Assembly: GCF_904846155.1 (NCBI RefSeq)
Contig: NZ_CAJGZP010000001.1
Coordinates: 1,054,001-1,118,000 of the forward strand
Source of the DNA: Psychrobacter fulvigenes
GTDB taxonomy: Bacteria > Pseudomonadota > Gammaproteobacteria > Pseudomonadales > Moraxellaceae
DNA: 64,000 bases
Direction of reading: 5' to 3'
Position numbers and translations under genes: made by a program. Below the pieces are notes generated by a model that ran no database searches, was not told the origin of the DNA, and was given only the letters and a program-made list of their open reading frames with translations. The number at the start of each line of letters is the position of its first letter. Position 1 is the first letter of the stretch. Positions 30,402 to 38,085 of this stretch are shown in pieces.

Positions 30402-31625
30402 TTAACTGTCTTTGCTACGCTGCTTGATAAGGGTGATGGCTTGATAGGGCAGTATTTTATCATCTAATACACTGATATTGATGTTTCTTTCGTCGCATAA
30501 ATGTCGCAATAATACCGTATCAGGATGATCAGCGGTAGCGAGTAAAATGCGCTCTGGATCGCGGCGTAATATGGCGCGTGTTGCCTCTGCAATTGTCGGC
30601 TTAATACGATTGCGATTACTGATTTGATAGGTAATTGCCAACTCATCAATTAAATCAGCAGTCTGATAGCGTGGCTGCGTAAATGTTGGCAAACGTTTTA
30701 AAGGTATCGTCAATGCACGCCGTGCTGTATCAATATGATCGATAAACGCTAAGCTATGATCTGCTTCTACTAAATTATCATAAAAGACACTGCGATGCAG
30801 ACCCGATTGCGGCTCAGTATATAGACTACGAGAAATCAGTCCAGATACCGTGCTATTTAATAAACCTGATGGAATCAACCAGTCTTCCTCACTAGCAGCC
30901 AACCAAGCGACGCCCGCTGGATCAGCGAGTGTAAGTAGCGGGATGGCGTCTTTTCCTTGATGGAATATATTGGCAAAATTGGGATGGCTAGGGTCACTAA
31001 AGACTTCTAAGCTACGAGCAAGCTCTTGATAAATGGCGCCTTTCCCTGTCCAGCCATCAACGAATACGATGGGGCTGTCTGGATAAGCGTCCAATATCAT
31101 TTGCAAGGCTATGGGATCAAGCCCACGATCACGGATGATGCTAATACCGTAATGCACACTGGGCAGAGAGTAGTCGCTATCGGCATCGGCATCTGACCTT
31201 TCATTATCTGACCCTTTCCTATCTGATAAGGCACGCTGTAATAACACGCCAATGGGCAAACCTGCTCGTACTAAGCTGACCAATACTAATGGGCGCTCAG
31301 TACTGACCGTTTGCTCGAAAGTATGGTGTAGCGTATGCGCTAAATTAGCGATATCAGTCGCGGTTCTATTTGTGCCTTGCTCTAATGCCTGCGCGTATAA
31401 TTGCTCATGCATAGCTGACGGCGCTTGCTCTAAAGTCAGCATATCTGAATAATGACGCTGCCCACTTTGGATAAGCGCTTCTTTTTGGCTGACTGGCACG
31501 TCTGCAACCGCGTCTTTATCGACAATATCGAGTAGCACTGTTACATCGCTGGCAAGGTAACTGCCTGAGCCGTATTTATCGAGTTTTTGAATATTGGGAG
31601 TGGTCATAGAAGGTTTTTTACTCAT
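30402..31625 (-). CDS. StiP/PRTase_1 family protein with PELOTA-like C-terminus
   Basis: 407 residues. The core is a phosphoribosyltransferase-like domain: VLVSLVRAGLPIG (about 114-126) and IVFVDGWTGKGAI (about 186-198), with the acid-rich position of a PRPP loop. Databases also name this family cysteine protease StiP, a label I would not rely on for function. The last 70 residues (from about 335, ERILLATADHPDT onward) fit the PELOTA-type RNA-binding domain that accompanies it in ter operons. An Asp/Ser-rich insertion sits at about 134-152. Gaps to its neighbours are 60-80 bases, consistent with one operon. Confidence 0.82.
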   Translation of the reverse strand: MSKKPSMTTPNIQKLDKYGSGSYLASDVTVLLDIVDKDAVADVPVSQKEALIQSGQRHYSDMLTLEQAPSAMHEQLYAQALEQGTNRTATDIANLAHTLHHTFEQTVSTERPLVLVSLVRAGLPIGVLLQRALSDRKGSDNERSDADADSDYSLPSVHYGISIIRDRGLDPIALQMILDAYPDSPIVFVDGWTGKGAIYQELARSLEVFSDPSHPNFANIFHQGKDAIPLLTLADPAGVAWLAASEEDWLIPSGLLNSTVSGLISRSLYTEPQSGLHRSVFYDNLVEADHSLAFIDHIDTARRALTIPLKRLPTFTQPRYQTADLIDELAITYQISNRNRIKPTIAEATRAILRRDPERILLATADHPDTVLLRHLCDERNINISVLDDKILPYQAITLIKQRSKDS

Positions 31626-31685: not shown

Positions 31686-32504
31686 CTAAGAACTAAGATT
31701 GTCGTGCAGTTGACCATGATTGGGCATACCGTACCAGTCTAGCAGTTGCAGAAACGGCAAATCTGCCAGACTGTCACCAAAGCCAAAACTCGGACGTTGA
31801 CTATCTAAATGATGGTCTAATAGAAACTGTACCGCATGGTGCTTATGTACTGCATGTGGCAGTATCGCGAGATTGTTGGCGTTAACATGGACATAAAAAT
31901 CCTGATCAAAATCACGTATTAATGTAGGTAGCTTTTTGGCTAATTCTGCCAATGCTTGATGGTCTTTTTGCGCATGTTTAATAGCCAGATAAATGGTCAA
32001 TTCTTCATTAACAGAACCATTATTAAAACTATCAATATGCGGTGTAAATACTAATTGACTGTCATCTTTTCTACTGTAATCCGCGAATAATAGGCTTAGC
32101 TGGTTAAGTTTGTCTTGCAAGGGGCTAAGCTGCTCATACATATGCTGTTGCCATGCGCTTAATAGTTCGCCATCAGCTGTTAAAATAATCGCCCCATGAG
32201 TCAAAACTTGCCAACTGTCAAAAGGTAGCTTTACACGTTTGATTTCACTACGGTCGCGCGCGGTGACCACTATCAATTCGGTACTAGCAAGCAACCAATT
32301 AAAGAACGCAGCTTGCCGTTGGCTCATAAAGCTTAATGGTTCGGCTTGTTTGTTTACCGTGGCGCAGACTAAGCTTTCAGATTCAGCGGTAGGTAAATCC
32401 CAAGCGTCGATCTTACGCTGCGTCTGAAATAGGGTATCGTCTAAATCCATTAAGGCGTAAGGTTTGATAATGTTGGGGCTAGTCTTAAAGAAAGGGGTGG
32501 TCAT
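31686..32504 (-). CDS. HAD-family phosphatase of the ter operon
   Basis: 272 residues. HAD motif I is MDLDDTLFQT (Asp20 nucleophile, Asp22 acid/base), motif II is VVTARDRS, and motif IV is FGFGDSLADLPF (about 242-253). The cap region between motifs suggests a Cof-like type II layout. Within this operon it is expected to dephosphorylate the intermediate made by the PRTase and ATP-grasp enzymes. That role comes from conserved gene neighbourhood, not from the sequence alone. Confidence 0.85.
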   Translation of the reverse strand: MTTPFFKTSPNIIKPYALMDLDDTLFQTQRKIDAWDLPTAESESLVCATVNKQAEPLSFMSQRQAAFFNWLLASTELIVVTARDRSEIKRVKLPFDSWQVLTHGAIILTADGELLSAWQQHMYEQLSPLQDKLNQLSLLFADYSRKDDSQLVFTPHIDSFNNGSVNEELTIYLAIKHAQKDHQALAELAKKLPTLIRDFDQDFYVHVNANNLAILPHAVHKHHAVQFLLDHHLDSQRPSFGFGDSLADLPFLQLLDWYGMPNHGQLHDNLSS

Positions 32505-32558: not shown

Positions 32559-33842
32559 TTAAATCGATGGACTCACCACCAACACATTATCCAAACCTTG
32601 CCACATCTCATCTACGCTATCAGAAGCCGTTTCTACACATAGCACAATCAAATCCCAATCGCTAGGTTCAACGTTATAAGCAAAATTGGTCATACCTAGA
32701 CCATAATTGTCGCTAAAGCTTAGCATGTTGGTAATCGCACCACCAAGGGCAATCGGTGAGCGTGTCAAAGCACTAAAGTTCACTGTAGCCACTGGTTTAG
32801 AGTGTTGAGTTTTCGCCTCAAGCCATTCCGTCAATAAAAATGGCAACCACACAAACTCATTACTACCCAATACTAAAATACGCTCAGGCAGTTGTTCTTT
32901 ATCAAACGGTGCTTGCCCACTAAAACGGGTAAATGCGGATTGAAACTTCGCTAAATAATTATTAAATCCATCTGTGCTATCCAGCGTTGGGAAGCGCCCC
33001 CAGTTACCAGTATCACCTAGAGCCTGACTGCCAGCCTCAGTCGTATCAACCGACGGCATGGTAATCGGCTCAGGATTGGGTGCATCCGTCCATTGCCACG
33101 CGCCAGATAACAGATGATGACGATAAAAGTCAATATTAGGTAGGCGTGTAGATATTGTATCCTCCATATCGGCTGCATCCTGATTCTGATTTAGCGACCA
33201 ATCAACCAAGGTGGTTAGGTGTACCTGCCCTAATTGCGAAAGCCCAGCACTACGTAGTGCAGTCACGACATTGACGCAAGTATTGCCTGTTGAGGCTTCG
33301 TCATCCACCATAATTAATGTCTTGCTAGCAAGTAATTGCTCTTGCGTAGCTTTGTTAGAACTTTGATAAATTAAATGTTGGCTGGCGTGACTGTGGTCTT
33401 CGCTAAAAGTCGTTAATAACGTTTCACTATTATCATCATTGTGTTGCGCATGACGCGTGGAGTTTAATAATAAAGCATTAGGATAGCGTGTTTGTAGCGC
33501 TTGATGCACACCAGCAGATAACCCAACAGCAGTCTCTGCCATACCAATGACTAAAATCGGCTCGGGTAAATCGCTAGGTACTAAATTTGCTAAGTCAGTA
33601 AAAGCCTTGCGCATGCTACTAGCCGTGACTGGGATATGGCGACCTAAGACTTTTGAGACGAATAAAAACGCGCGTTTGGGGTTAATGCGTTGGGCAAACC
33701 CAAGCAAGTCTTCTAGTTGATAAGTCGTATCATTGTCTAGTGTGCTATTGGTTTGATAGGTTAGGTCAAGCGTACCGCGAGGTAGGGTGATGCTAGTCTC
33801 ATACACTTTATTGGATGGTAATTTGTTTGTAATATCAGTCAT
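32559..33842 (-). CDS. Phosphoribosyltransferase with C-terminal TRSP domain
   Basis: 427 residues. The N-terminal PRTase_2-type domain has VIGMAETAVGLSAGVHQAL (about 98-116) and the PRPP loop LIMVDDEASTGNT (176-188). The C-terminal domain contains the name-giving TRSP motif (ALTRSPIALGG, 360-363) and the glycine-rich LVLGSNEFVWLP. This PRTase-TRSP pairing is a hallmark of the ter-linked biosynthetic module. The start ATG lies inside the end of the NYN fusion gene (8-base overlap ATGACTGA), so translation of the two is coupled. Confidence 0.88.
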   Translation of the reverse strand: MTDITNKLPSNKVYETSITLPRGTLDLTYQTNSTLDNDTTYQLEDLLGFAQRINPKRAFLFVSKVLGRHIPVTASSMRKAFTDLANLVPSDLPEPILVIGMAETAVGLSAGVHQALQTRYPNALLLNSTRHAQHNDDNSETLLTTFSEDHSHASQHLIYQSSNKATQEQLLASKTLIMVDDEASTGNTCVNVVTALRSAGLSQLGQVHLTTLVDWSLNQNQDAADMEDTISTRLPNIDFYRHHLLSGAWQWTDAPNPEPITMPSVDTTEAGSQALGDTGNWGRFPTLDSTDGFNNYLAKFQSAFTRFSGQAPFDKEQLPERILVLGSNEFVWLPFLLTEWLEAKTQHSKPVATVNFSALTRSPIALGGAITNMLSFSDNYGLGMTNFAYNVEPSDWDLIVLCVETASDSVDEMWQGLDNVLVVSPSI

Positions 33843-35163
33843 CGCTTAGTTCTACCCCATATTTTTCACAAAGATAACGTAGATCGCCATCTATATTTTG
33901 ATGCTTTGGTGCAAATTGCCATTGTTTGCCTGTTCGGTTTAAGGTAAATAATATTAGGCTTTTACCTGATTTGTTTTGGACGGAAAATTCACCTGAAAAT
34001 AATAATGTGTTTTGCTGTTTATCAGTGATGCTTAATTCAATAGGTGCTTGCTGAGGGTCGGTCGCTAAGCTTTCAAGCTCACTTGATAATACAAAGTTAA
34101 GTTGTTCGATATTAGTAGGTTGGAGGTTCAAATCACAACTGAACTCAGATACTGACTTATTACCTTCGAGACGTTGATCTAGCTCGACTGCGCCATCTTC
34201 ACTATGCGTCTGTCCATAAAATATCATATCTTCATCGCCACGTACTTTTGCAGTAGCATTTACTCTAAATAAAGCAGCATCAGTAGTAGGCGCAGTCGCT
34301 ATTTTGACAATAATAGGGGCAGCAGGGAAAAGGTTTGCATTAGGTTTAGTAGTCGCTAATTTGTCAGTAGAGACTTGGAGCGAGGTTTTTTTATTACTAG
34401 CTGTAGAAGCTGTCGATTTTTTTTGTATTTTTAGCTTTGCCCACATGCCATTAGATTGTCGTCTTATATCGTATAAACGTAGAGCGACAATTAAATCAGA
34501 AAATTTTGTATAGCCATATTTATCTAATTTAATATTTTCATGGTTTTGGTGAATTTGACTGGCGATATAAGATAAGTTTGACCAACCATTATCAGCATTA
34601 GGATTTTCATTAATAAGCTTGTTTATCACACTGATTAAGTGGTTTTGTGTGTGTAGCTGCTTAGTTGTCCAGCGTGTCGGCGAGTTGTTTGACAAGGATG
34701 CGGTTTTGCTAGAGCTACTTTGCGCAGCCAGCAAATCTTCTACATAAAAAAATTGATCGCAAGATTTGGCAAAAGCGTCAACAGTACTGCGTTTACCGAA
34801 GCCAAATACTTTGACACCATTTTTGCGAATGCGTAGCGCCAGCGAGGTAAAGTCGCTATCACTCGATATCAGGCAAAAGCCATCGTAGCGCTGACTATAA
34901 AGTAAATCCATCGCCTCAATCACCATGCCAATATCTGTGGCATTTTTACCTTTGACATAAGCAAAGTGCTGCATGGGATCTATAGCATATTTGAGTAGCG
35001 CCTCTTGCCAGCTTTGAATATGAGCATTGCCCCAATCACCGTAGATCTTTTTACAAGTGATGTGACCAAATTTTTCTATCTCTTGCAAAATGTGGCCAAT
35101 ATTTTTTGCAGAGGCGTTATCAGCATCGATAAGTACAGCGATATTGTTGAGTTTAGCTGGCAT
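33835..35163 (-). CDS. NYN nuclease-like - LOTUS - TerA/TerD-like fusion protein
   Basis: 442 residues with three recognisable parts. Residues 6-145 are a LabA-type NYN (PIN-like) domain with the metal-binding aspartates Asp13/Asp15 (IDADN), Asp77 (NATDIGM) and Asp102/Asp104 (SSDSDF), all present. Residues 172-247 look like an OST-HTH/LOTUS domain (HLISVINKLI ... GYTKFSDLIVAL). After a Ser/Thr/Lys linker, residues 285-440 form a TerD-superfamily domain (KVRGDEDMIFYGQTHSEDG). This part is closest to the N-terminal domain of the TerA encoded at 36811-38085 and lacks the acidic calcium loop of TerD/E/Z. An RNase recruited or controlled by the ter system is inferred. A strong AAGGAA site lies before the ATG; the 3' end overlaps the PRTase gene. 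Confidence 0.88.
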   Translation of the reverse strand: MPAKLNNIAVLIDADNASAKNIGHILQEIEKFGHITCKKIYGDWGNAHIQSWQEALLKYAIDPMQHFAYVKGKNATDIGMVIEAMDLLYSQRYDGFCLISSDSDFTSLALRIRKNGVKVFGFGKRSTVDAFAKSCDQFFYVEDLLAAQSSSSKTASLSNNSPTRWTTKQLHTQNHLISVINKLINENPNADNGWSNLSYIASQIHQNHENIKLDKYGYTKFSDLIVALRLYDIRRQSNGMWAKLKIQKKSTASTASNKKTSLQVSTDKLATTKPNANLFPAAPIIVKIATAPTTDAALFRVNATAKVRGDEDMIFYGQTHSEDGAVELDQRLEGNKSVSEFSCDLNLQPTNIEQLNFVLSSELESLATDPQQAPIELSITDKQQNTLLFSGEFSVQNKSGKSLILFTLNRTGKQWQFAPKHQNIDGDLRYLCEKYGVELSDD

Positions 35164-35216: not shown

Positions 35217-35318
35217 TTACTTTTTATTTCTTAACCCTGACAGCCAACCAGCCATAGCGCACCGTGCTTGTTCAATTACGGTGTTGGCGCCTAATGCTAA
35301 TGTGGTCTGTGCTGTCAT
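35217..35318 (-). CDS. Small ORF in the ter operon, 33 residues
   Basis: An ATG at 35318 follows a good ribosome binding site (GAGGG, seven-base spacing) and opens 33 codons to TAA. It fills much of the 210-base space between the ATP-grasp gene and the NYN fusion gene, on the operon strand. The peptide starts MTAQTTLALGANTVIEQ and ends with a basic tail, GLRNKK. The LxLGAN opening recalls the first strand of TerA/TerD domains (compare LIAGANAPL in TerA here). It could be a small functional protein, a leader peptide or a remnant of a ter-domain gene. Translation is supported only by the ribosome binding site and position. Confidence 0.45.
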   Translation of the reverse strand: MTAQTTLALGANTVIEQARCAMAGWLSGLRNKK

Positions 35319-35373
35319 CGCTTACCCTCTGATCAAACTTACATTCGGGGCTTATCTGTTTTAAGGAGATATT

Positions 35374-36516
35374 TTATTCAGCAGTCGCTTCTTCAATTTT
35401 TACACTCATCATAATTGATCGTACCTGACAAGGCGTAATCTGCTGACTAATATCAGCCAGTTTGGGTTTATCCGTTAAACCAAGCCAATAGGCAAACCCC
35501 ACTTGCGTTAAGTCCACACTGCTATGAGCGGTGTAGCCAATACCGCCTGAGGGGCGAGAGTTGATCTCAAGGACACGGTGTTGACCATCGTCGTCCGCCT
35601 TGGTTTGTACACTGACGATGCCATCACAGCCAAAGGCTTCAATCAGTGGGATGACGACCTCCATCACTGATTGCTCATAACCGATATGTTGGATTTTCCC
35701 CGTCTTATGGCGAGTGACTGCTGCCAATACTTCACCATGTTCGCAGACGACATCGATAGAGTACTCTTGCCCTGACAAATAAGGCATCAGCAGCATGGGA
35801 ATAGGGCGCTCATGTACCATTTGGCTATTGGCGTAGGCGTTTATGAACTGTGTGGTATTTATTTTTTTCTCTTCAGTAAAGTATAAATGCTCAAAACTAT
35901 CATACTGCTCACCTGAAGGTTTACCAGTATCAAGTCGCCAAAATCCTTGCGCAAAAATACCAGTGACTGGTTTGACACATAAGGGCTGATGACCGTGCTG
36001 CGCCAGTAACGCTTCAAGCTCAGCAGTATTATCAAAACGCCAAGCATCAGCCACTGGGATGTCATGGGCATGGCAATGCTGCATAAAGGCAAATTTATCA
36101 TCAATCGACTCCAATGCAGCGACGCTCGTCGCACCTGTCAATAAGCGAATGCCTGCTGCCTTAAATGTCTCACGATGCGCCTCATAGTCAATACCGTTAC
36201 GACCAGTCAGCAATACTTTCACGTTTTGACGCTGAGCCTCTTCAAGTACAAACTGCCAGCGCGGCAATATGGATTCAGCCTGCGTATGCTCATCATTATT
36301 TGCAGCCGTATTGACTGGCTCGCGATACACTAAGTCAGCAAATTCAAAAATCTCAGGTCTATGATGGCGATGTGATGCGATTATATTAAAAGGGGTAGTC
36401 GATTGTGTCTTCAGCGCTTGTAGACTGGCTAACATGTCGCGCTGGCTGGACTGACCTTCAGCCAACCAAGCTGCTATTGGCATCGTGCGGTGGTTAGGGT
36501 TTGCAGGGTTATCCAT
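35374..36516 (-). CDS. ATP-grasp ligase of the ter operon
   Basis: 380 residues from the preferred ATG (MDNPANPNH, preceded by GAGAAG); an upstream in-frame GTG at 36573 has no ribosome binding site. The N-terminal Rossmann-like part has an IAAWLAEGQSSQRDML opening and HRHHRPEIFEFAD. The ATP-grasp core has LCVKPVTGIFAQGFWRL, LMPYLSGQEYSIDVVCEHGEVL and the metal-binding VLEINSRPSGG. It is the first gene of the minus-strand operon and is divergent from terA. It would join a carboxylate to an amine with ATP in the proposed nucleoside-like metabolite pathway; the actual substrates are unknown. Confidence 0.87.
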   Translation of the reverse strand: MDNPANPNHRTMPIAAWLAEGQSSQRDMLASLQALKTQSTTPFNIIASHRHHRPEIFEFADLVYREPVNTAANNDEHTQAESILPRWQFVLEEAQRQNVKVLLTGRNGIDYEAHRETFKAAGIRLLTGATSVAALESIDDKFAFMQHCHAHDIPVADAWRFDNTAELEALLAQHGHQPLCVKPVTGIFAQGFWRLDTGKPSGEQYDSFEHLYFTEEKKINTTQFINAYANSQMVHERPIPMLLMPYLSGQEYSIDVVCEHGEVLAAVTRHKTGKIQHIGYEQSVMEVVIPLIEAFGCDGIVSVQTKADDDGQHRVLEINSRPSGGIGYTAHSSVDLTQVGFAYWLGLTDKPKLADISQQITPCQVRSIMMSVKIEEATAE

Positions 36517-36810
36517 AGTCTTCTCAGCGTGATGATAAGTTTTATAAGTAGTTGGTATAAATAGTTGGGTCACTTGATGCAGCGATTCTAAAGCTATTAT
36601 TGATAGCAGAGTCTATTATATACAAATGGCACAGGTTATAAATGTTCCTGATAAAATAGCGTCAGGGATTTGTAAGAGGGTTTTTAACACTCAATCAATG
36701 AGCTTGCTTATTAAAAGTCTCATGATATCCATGCTACTATATGGCAATGTCTAAAATGGCAAGTAAAGCTATAAATCAATAAGTGTTATCAATAATTATA
36801 AGGACAGATT

Positions 36811-38085
36811 ATGAGCCAAAACCAACCGCAAAAGTTAATTGCAGGTGCCAATGCGCCCCTACCAAATGACAATATCAGTATCCGAATTCTGAGCCAAAAC
36901 GCGATTGATTGCGCCGCTTACCGCTTGACTACCGATGGTAAAGTCCGCGGTGATGGCGATATGATATTTTATGGTCAGACGCGTAGCGATGATGGTAATG
37001 TGAGCTTTCGAGGTCACGATAGTGATGGGTTTTTTGATATTAACTTGCCTGCGCAGCCTGCAAGCATTGATAAGATTGCCTTGGCCTTTTCAAGTGCGCA
37101 GACTTTGGCTCAAGTCGGTGATGTGGATATTCAGGTATTGCAAGGCAGCCAAGTGCTAATGAGCTGCCAGTTAAGCAGTGCTGGTCGTAGCGAAAAAGCC
37201 ATTATCTTAGCCGAATGCTATCGTCGGCAAGGCAGCTGGAAGTTTCGCTTCATTGCTCAAGGTTTTGACGGCGGTCTTAAGCCGTTATCAGAGCACTTCG
37301 GCGTTGAGATTGCTGATGAAGCACCCGCTCAAGCCCAGAACCAATCACAAAGTCAGTCTCAACCTATTAATACGCAGCGGCCAATCAATACGCAAAAAGC
37401 GGGTAGTGCCCCTCAAGCAAGCACTCCACCGCCGATTCCTTCTAGCCCTGCGGTTAATTTAAATAAAATTACGCTCACCAAAAACCAAACCAGTATCAAT
37501 CTAAAAAAACGTGATGACTTTGGTAAGATCTCAGTCAACCTAAACTGGAACCAACGTCCAGATATGGACAAGCAAGCGCCCAAAAAAGGCTTGTTGGGCG
37601 ATCTGTTTAAGCAGCATAAATCTGGCGGTATCGACTTGGATGTCGGTGCGATGATTCATCTAAAAAATGGTGAAAAAACACTCATTCAGGCCTTAGGTAA
37701 TCGCTTTGGAAGTTTGCAATCCGCGCCTTACGTTTTATTACGTGCTGATGATAGAACGGGGCAAGTCAGTGGCGGTGAATGGCTCGATATCAATGGCCAA
37801 CAGTGGTCACAGATTGAGGAAGTATTCATCTTTGCTTTCATCTACGAAGGTGCACCAAATTGGGCGCAAACGGATGGGGTAGTGACCATTCATGTGCCTG
37901 AGCAGCCGCCGATTGAAACCCGTTTAACGGAAGGCACTGGCAACTTGCCAATGTGCGCCATCGCGCGTTTGGTGAACCAACAAGGCAGTATCAATGTTGA
38001 GCGTATCAACCAGTATTTTAAAGGCCATCAGGAGATGGATAAAGCCTTTAATTGGGGTTTTAGCTGGAAAAAAGGGCGTAAGTAG
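36811..38085 (+). CDS. terA: Tellurium resistance protein TerA
   Basis: 424 residues with two TerD-superfamily domains. The first (about 15-170) has KVRGDGDMIFYGQTRSDDG and WKFRFIAQGFDGGL but replaces the [12 protein letters not shown] calcium loop with GHDSDGFFDIN, so canonical calcium binding is unlikely there. A Gln/Ser/Pro/Asn linker (about 172-220, with PINTQ repeated) leads to the TerA-type C-terminal domain (KISVNLNWNQ, GIDLDVGAMI, LRADDRTGQVSGGEWLDI). TerA is a cytoplasmic scaffold of the ter complex near the inner membrane. It is the only ter gene here on the plus strand, divergent from the biosynthetic operon and convergent with terZ. An AAGGAC site precedes the ATG. Confidence 0.9.
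   Translation: MSQNQPQKLIAGANAPLPNDNISIRILSQNAIDCAAYRLTTDGKVRGDGDMIFYGQTRSDDGNVSFRGHDSDGFFDINLPAQPASIDKIALAFSSAQTLAQVGDVDIQVLQGSQVLMSCQLSSAGRSEKAIILAECYRRQGSWKFRFIAQGFDGGLKPLSEHFGVEIADEAPAQAQNQSQSQSQPINTQRPINTQKAGSAPQASTPPPIPSSPAVNLNKITLTKNQTSINLKKRDDFGKISVNLNWNQRPDMDKQAPKKGLLGDLFKQHKSGGIDLDVGAMIHLKNGEKTLIQALGNRFGSLQSAPYVLLRADDRTGQVSGGEWLDINGQQWSQIEEVFIFAFIYEGAPNWAQTDGVVTIHVPEQPPIETRLTEGTGNLPMCAIARLVNQQGSINVERINQYFKGHQEMDKAFNWGFSWKKGRK

Follow-up and report, generated by a model that had tools for sequence, protein, structure and literature searches.

Why does the ter biosynthetic cluster of Psychrobacter fulvigenes carry, between two of its biosynthetic genes, a gene for a putative RNase that ends in a TerD-type domain? 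The mechanism by which ter genes protect bacteria from phages, colicins and stress is not yet settled. The gene lies in a stretch of 64,000 nucleotides (contig NZ_CAJGZP010000001.1 of assembly GCF_904846155.1, positions 1,054,001 to 1,118,000), which is called the window here and to which all coordinates refer. NYN domains cut RNA and OST-HTH/LOTUS domains bind RNA, and a Ter-dependent system with metabolite biosynthesis genes was reportedly described by Anantharaman, Iyer and Aravind in 2012. The reading favored here, to which we give roughly even odds (about 0.5), is that the protein is an RNA endonuclease effector linked to ter, in which one half, used for targeting or sensing, can be exchanged.

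The surrounding genes run on the reverse strand in the order C-C bond lyase (PF15617, 29222..30319, Pfam 1.7e-97), StiP-PELOTA (30402..31625, Pfam 6.5e-79 and 3.7e-23), HAD hydrolase (31686..32504, Pfam Hydrolase_3 1.1e-6), PRTase_2-TRSP (32559..33842, Pfam 1.5e-52 and 1.5e-15), the NYN gene and ATPgrasp_Ter (35374..36573, Pfam 1e-33), while a TerA-like gene occupies the opposite strand (36811..38085, Pfam TerD 2.1e-27). Three TerD genes, an AIM24 gene and a TerC gene, the last recognized by eye, follow beyond TerA. The TerD domains of the source genome number six in total, and one is encoded beyond the window (G000:C1:2251618-2252061), within a 221-aa open frame well away from the ter cluster. 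The PRTase_2-TRSP, ATPgrasp_Ter, HAD, StiP-PELOTA, PF15617 lyase, TerA and TerD genes, together with the by-eye TerC, are held in common with the Ter-dependent system as summarized in the available part of PMC7824862; different from that system, some Psychrobacter strains add a predicted RNase with LOTUS and often TerD in the interval between the ATP-grasp and PRTase genes.

The NYN gene (33835..35163, reverse strand) encodes 442 aa, for which Pfam recognized NYN, OST-HTH and TerD and the AlphaFold2 model reached a mean pLDDT of 81.4 and a pTM of 0.56. The NYN domain comprises residues 7-141 (34741..35145, reverse strand) with D13, D15, D77, D102 and D104, followed by an OST-HTH/LOTUS domain at residues 177-240 (34444..34635, reverse strand; Pfam 2.5e-9, above the cut-off, and profile matches to 2kpm and 2kzv with E 4.1e-5 and 7.5e-4) and a TerD-fold domain at residues 293-435 (33859..34287, reverse strand). 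The best 50 rows of the structure comparison all fell on the NYN and TerD parts and none on the OST-HTH part; the NYN fold matches included 5yaa and 6fdl (MARF1), and a weak match to 2qip aligned D77 and D102/D104. Pfam, profile matches and the AlphaFold2 model, and for NYN and TerD also the structure comparison, bear out the three-domain protein proposed in the initial annotation, and the full set of active-site aspartates it had listed was retained in 134 of 136 aligned rows, the other two being gapped at these positions. Neither a missing NYN or TerD fold nor a loss of the aspartates, which would have spoken against that proposal, was encountered.

The resemblance of the C-terminus to the first domain of TerA, noted at the outset, was likewise confirmed, as TerA gave the highest sequence similarity to the fused TerD with 37% identity to residues 276-442. 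An acidic loop (a type of 13 protein letters) is present in TerD1-3 of the window and absent from the aligned fused TerDs as well as from the first domain of TerA. In TerD proteins the acidic loop has a role in calcium binding, and the fused TerD, being without it, need not act like TerD1-3. Direct derivation of the fused TerD from TerA was considered on the basis of the highest similarity and the shared absence of the loop, yet the TerD tree did not settle the donor, as it was midpoint-rooted and had long branches. Among three close relatives (G017, G101, G102) dN was 0.010-0.022 against a dS of 0.143-0.155 over the whole NYN gene, and 0.015-0.019 against 0.109-0.170 in the TerD part, so the NYN gene is under purifying selection among these near relatives.

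The NYN gene end overlaps the start of the PRTase gene by 8 bases (33835..33842, reverse strand), and the same overlap was implied by the match coordinates in four other loci (L021, L023, L027, L028); the two genes are therefore probably translated together. A promoter scan upstream of the NYN gene returned 4 sites against 4.9 expected. Of 105 Psychrobacter genomes, 98 had the PRTase, 97 the ATP-grasp and 26 an NYN domain, which lay near the PRTase in 19 (19 of the 98 with a PRTase), so the gene is lacking in the majority of Psychrobacter ter clusters and is not a core component. Where it occurs, the tight linkage to ter biosynthetic genes inferred from the window held, with no other ORF of at least 80 aa between NYN and PRTase in 18 of the 19 slot copies; the exception, G124, has an opposite-strand gene there. 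The interval from ATP-grasp to PRTase ranged from 33 bases to 7.2 kb in 89 of 99 places, those with both markers on one contig, and its contents were read in the 77 intervals of at least 300 bases.

Several other genes shared this interval. The commonest on the PRTase strand was a protease of ~410 aa (56 ORFs including fragments in the 77 intervals), and protease, NYN and PRTase stood in a row in other genomes, including G060. MFS and MHYT genes (Pfam) and a gene for a RidA-like repeat protein (by eye) were all encoded on the opposite strand. In 7 of the 77 slots (L071-L077) the protease was followed by a gene for a 357-aa protein whose C-terminal DnaJ domain scored just at the cut-off, a DUF4238 gene was located on the ATP-grasp side in two genomes (L103, L104), and the slot of G021 contained a gene for an Mrr-type restriction endonuclease (L102:190-1368) beside its protease and NYN genes.

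Such mixed contents raise the alternative that a general NYN-LOTUS RNase landed in the cluster by chance, with a fortuitous TerD fusion and a function apart from ter. NYN-LOTUS genes are indeed widespread outside ter, with relatives on plasmids and in other genera, the MFS, MHYT and RidA-like genes have no evident ter link, and TerD is missing from six of the 19 slot copies. However, those three genes lie on the opposite strand, whereas the NYN copies hold their position before the PRTase; in the tree the slot copies and close proteins formed one group (support 100/99) apart from 8 further NYN-LOTUS genes, of which two came from Psychrobacter, a separation for which the tool warned of long branches; and 12 or 13 of the 19 copies do have TerD, with low dN relative to dS in the three close relatives. 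Insertion by chance is accordingly regarded as unlikely, though it fares best among the alternatives to a ter-linked effector.

The slot protease matched Trypsin_2 with E 1.1e-21 and TerD just below the cut-off (24.5 versus 25.3 bits). The catalytic His and Asp, together with the GSSGSP serine, were invariant in all 51 copies over 400 aa, while the TerD likeness of its N-terminus was partial, covering 47 columns in profile comparison (E 2.2e-5). The extreme C-terminus (~...LWLVGCQG) was also strongly conserved in the slot cluster (c0, P0122-P0241), though it lies outside the protease domain. Counting fragments, the protease was matched in 64 of the 105 genomes. In seven ter stretches from non-Psychrobacter genomes it stood directly before the PRTase in one (36.6% identity), the remaining six having a TerD gene (five) or the ATP-grasp (one) in this place; the NYN gene was found in the ter stretch of none of these seven genomes. 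The one plasmid read, Pseudomonas aeruginosa NZ_OL468012.1 (L132), has the order ATP-grasp, trypsin-like protease, PRTase. In view of these neighborhoods, the protease is probably the older neighbor and the nuclease a Psychrobacter addition. The protease query matched 199 records of the plasmid collection, of which 126 reached a coverage of 80% or more; Pseudomonas likewise accounted for 126 of the 199.

Both ends of a deleted TerD-like/trypsin protease gene are still present in the window itself. In the stretch from the ATP-grasp to the NYN gene, blastx against the slot proteases revealed a remnant (35234..35336, reverse strand) in which approximately 29 codons from the start of the gene adjoin approximately 17 from its end and the middle is gone, with E 5.4e-10 for 35250-35336 and 2.8e-4 for 35234-35284, compared with 0.009 for the best of 200 base shuffles. 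The pieces are 72% (first codons) and 74% (last codons) identical to the slot proteases, and no full protease copy was found elsewhere in the source genome.

The two halves of the NYN protein differ in how well they are kept. In total, 137 NYN proteins were cut after the NYN domain and the remainders grouped at 50% identity and 75% coverage, resulting in 24 groups, one of which is a short fragment (P0043); a model seeded with fused TerDs assigned TerD to 107 of the 137. NYN domains were at least 95% identical in 186 pairs, and 87 of these pairs fell into different C-terminal groups. As many of the 137 are metagenome proteins and possibly chimeric, the analysis was repeated on the 300 pairs formed by 25 proteins that came from genomes or named strains, over which NYN and C-terminal identity correlated at 0.66. 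Eleven of these pairs had NYN identity of at least 97%, and their C-terminal identity was 93-99% in seven and 34-51% in four, namely the window and Psychrobacter sp. H8-1 (P0063; NYN 99%, rest 51%), G007 and G078 (97%, 34%), G025 and G031 (97%, 45%), and G001 and P0084 (97%, 46%).

At the DNA level, the clearest case was that of P. okhotskensis (L022) and P. immobilis (L027), which share 94% identity in NYN (dS 0.32) and 47% in the rest, with 84% in the PRTase, 79% in the HAD, 80% in the StiP and 79% in the ATP-grasp gene. Their 60-base profile dropped from 97 through 62 to 35 at about codon 140 and rose again in the last codons. Since NYN is more alike than the neighboring genes, exchange fits this step better than fast divergence. 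NYN exceeded its neighbors in this pair only among the seven compared in DNA: between the window and L027 and between L024 and L027 the C-terminal half was 46-48% identical and NYN 80-81%, like the neighbors, and the fall between L021 and L031 was gentler, so that fast C-terminal divergence may be an alternative to exchange in the six other pairs. In the window, the GC content is 37.6% in the C-terminal half (codons 146-442), 41.4% in the NYN part and 42-48% in neighboring ter genes. Judged from these sequence comparisons, the LOTUS/TerD half (approximately codons 141-440; 33844..34743, reverse strand) looks to have been exchanged between strains while NYN stayed nearly constant.

TerD belongs to this variable part. 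A model built without the fused sequences detected it in 12 of the 19 slot copies and found none in six, and one copy (G027) was counted as doubtful because a model seeded with fused TerDs found it (E 2e-23) and the other model missed it, its profile comparison (E 0.12) being like that of two negative controls (0.12 and 0.29). TerD as a fixed part of the protein was thus ruled out, and since the six copies without it remain in the slot, TerD is not what holds the gene there. The claim that an RNA-processing module is physically joined to the ter scaffold accordingly does not hold as a general rule. Pfam located two OST-HTH stretches in each of the scanned TerD-less proteins (P0063, P0071, P0083, P0101, P0120), which represent the two main TerD-less groups rather than the six slot copies themselves; by eye, the G021 copy apparently has one. 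P0063 from strain H8-1, which shares its NYN domain with the window as described above, terminates, by eye, in a stub that resembles the final part of TerD, suggesting TerD loss. Fourteen fused TerDs formed one group (support 100/100), and gain and loss of TerD on the NYN tree took 6 changes, at least 2 of them forced, on a tree with many weak forks.

We infer RNase activity, recruitment to ter and a role against phages or stress for the NYN protein. The NYN domain would cut RNA at its aspartate cluster with a divalent metal, and the LOTUS domain or domains would bind RNA and select or hold the substrate. Where present, TerD might dock the enzyme on Ter proteins or make it respond to the Ter state, so that the C-terminal half would set which RNA, Ter protein or ligand the RNase answers to. 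Replacement of this half by inter-strain recombination, with the catalytic part kept, is as expected for a part that recognizes a changing thing, and the apparent exchange under a fixed nuclease would single out the region that faces a variable target; the enzyme may be deployed against phages or under stress.

A different division of labor would have the nuclease serve the metabolite pathway by freeing or trimming RNA for the PRTase, StiP-PELOTA and HAD enzymes, with no effector involved. The direct overlap with the PRTase gene, the PELOTA RNA-binding domain of StiP and the linkage to the PRTase rather than to terA all suit this proposal, but a pathway enzyme would hardly be confined to a fifth of the PRTase-bearing genomes (19 of 98) and be missing from the seven non-Psychrobacter ter stretches, nor is an exchanged half expected in one, which makes it improbable. 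Equally improbable is a ligand-sensor version, in which a nucleoside-like product of the cluster binds TerD and turns on the RNase or the protease like the messengers of CBASS and type III CRISPR, for although TerD has been proposed to bind specialized nucleotide derivatives (available parts of PMC7159879 and PMC7824862) and two different slot enzymes carry TerD-type parts, no ligand is known, copies without TerD would need a different switch, the acidic loop is missing from the fused TerD and the protease resembles TerD over 47 columns only.

The favored effector reading can be extended to the whole slot. One proposal is that Ter clusters produce a nucleoside-like signal, which TerD-type proteins sense (available parts of PMC7824862 and PMC7159879). 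The Ter biosynthetic cluster might then be a signaling defense system with a slot for TerD-type effectors, formerly filled by the protease and in Psychrobacter by an RNase whose NYN blade is fixed while its RNA-recognition/TerD-sensing half is swapped under pressure from phages or their countermeasures; this broader scheme is tentative and less probable than the effector reading itself. Two enzymes carrying TerD-type parts in one slot give a testable idea of what the pathway may control, namely the cleavage of RNA and of proteins.

Among known systems, the nearest layout is that of the bacterial NYN(LK-nuclease/DUF88)-OST-HTH proteins, in which an N-terminal NYN-type nuclease is followed by one or two OST-HTH domains (PMC2848206, in part). 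The Psychrobacter protein has this layout in common and adds TerD, a location in the ter cluster and an apparently exchanged C-terminal half; the word TerD has a count of 0 in the available text of that paper. The CRISPR-associated NYN ribonuclease of B. fragilis is a Mn2+-dependent RNase with equivalent aspartates, inactive as D13A (PMC11346440, available text). It shares the NYN fold and catalytic aspartates and, as an accessory RNase in a nucleotide-signaling locus, resembles the present case in setting as well, yet it belongs to another system, and LOTUS has a count of 0 in the same part of PMC11346440. MARF1, also a NYN and LOTUS RNase, is eukaryotic and has eight LOTUS domains and two RRMs, with no TerD named in the available description. 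A link to metal levels is a guess from the Mn2+ need of a relative and the presence of TerC, which is annotated as 'TerC/Alx family metal homeostasis protein' in the Pseudomonas plasmid record.

NYN-LOTUS is a known bacterial architecture and the ter cluster a known system, and the TerD fusion appears to be a variant added in Psychrobacter. Neither the NYN-LOTUS-TerD fusion nor a TerD-trypsin protein of the slot type was described in the accessible portions of the literature searched, outside which the 2012 Ter paper falls; the consulted part of PMC3710099, which treats TerD and NYN, does not describe the fusion, and no word starting with 'NYN' occurs in the available main text of PMC5822837, which deals with ter in Psychrobacter. 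In a full-length search the fusion appeared only in Psychrobacter and similar metagenome proteins among the best 120 of 6343 matches, so distant fusions may be missed. Plasmids (0 of 2846 matched records with a place covering 80% of the query) and phages (0 of 7 with a place covering the fused query) yielded none, no fusion was confirmed in viral contigs, and two Granulosicoccus loci reached through the TerD part had no NYN match. A protein search with the TerD part returned 48 matches, all of them fused proteins or fragments except P0121, which has TerD only. Neither the NYN protein nor any of the five ter proteins run alongside it matched a model of the 2023 PADLOC library; residues 215-377 of the G007 copy of the slot protease matched the RT-Protease_XI models of this library with E 5.9e-18 and 9.4e-18.
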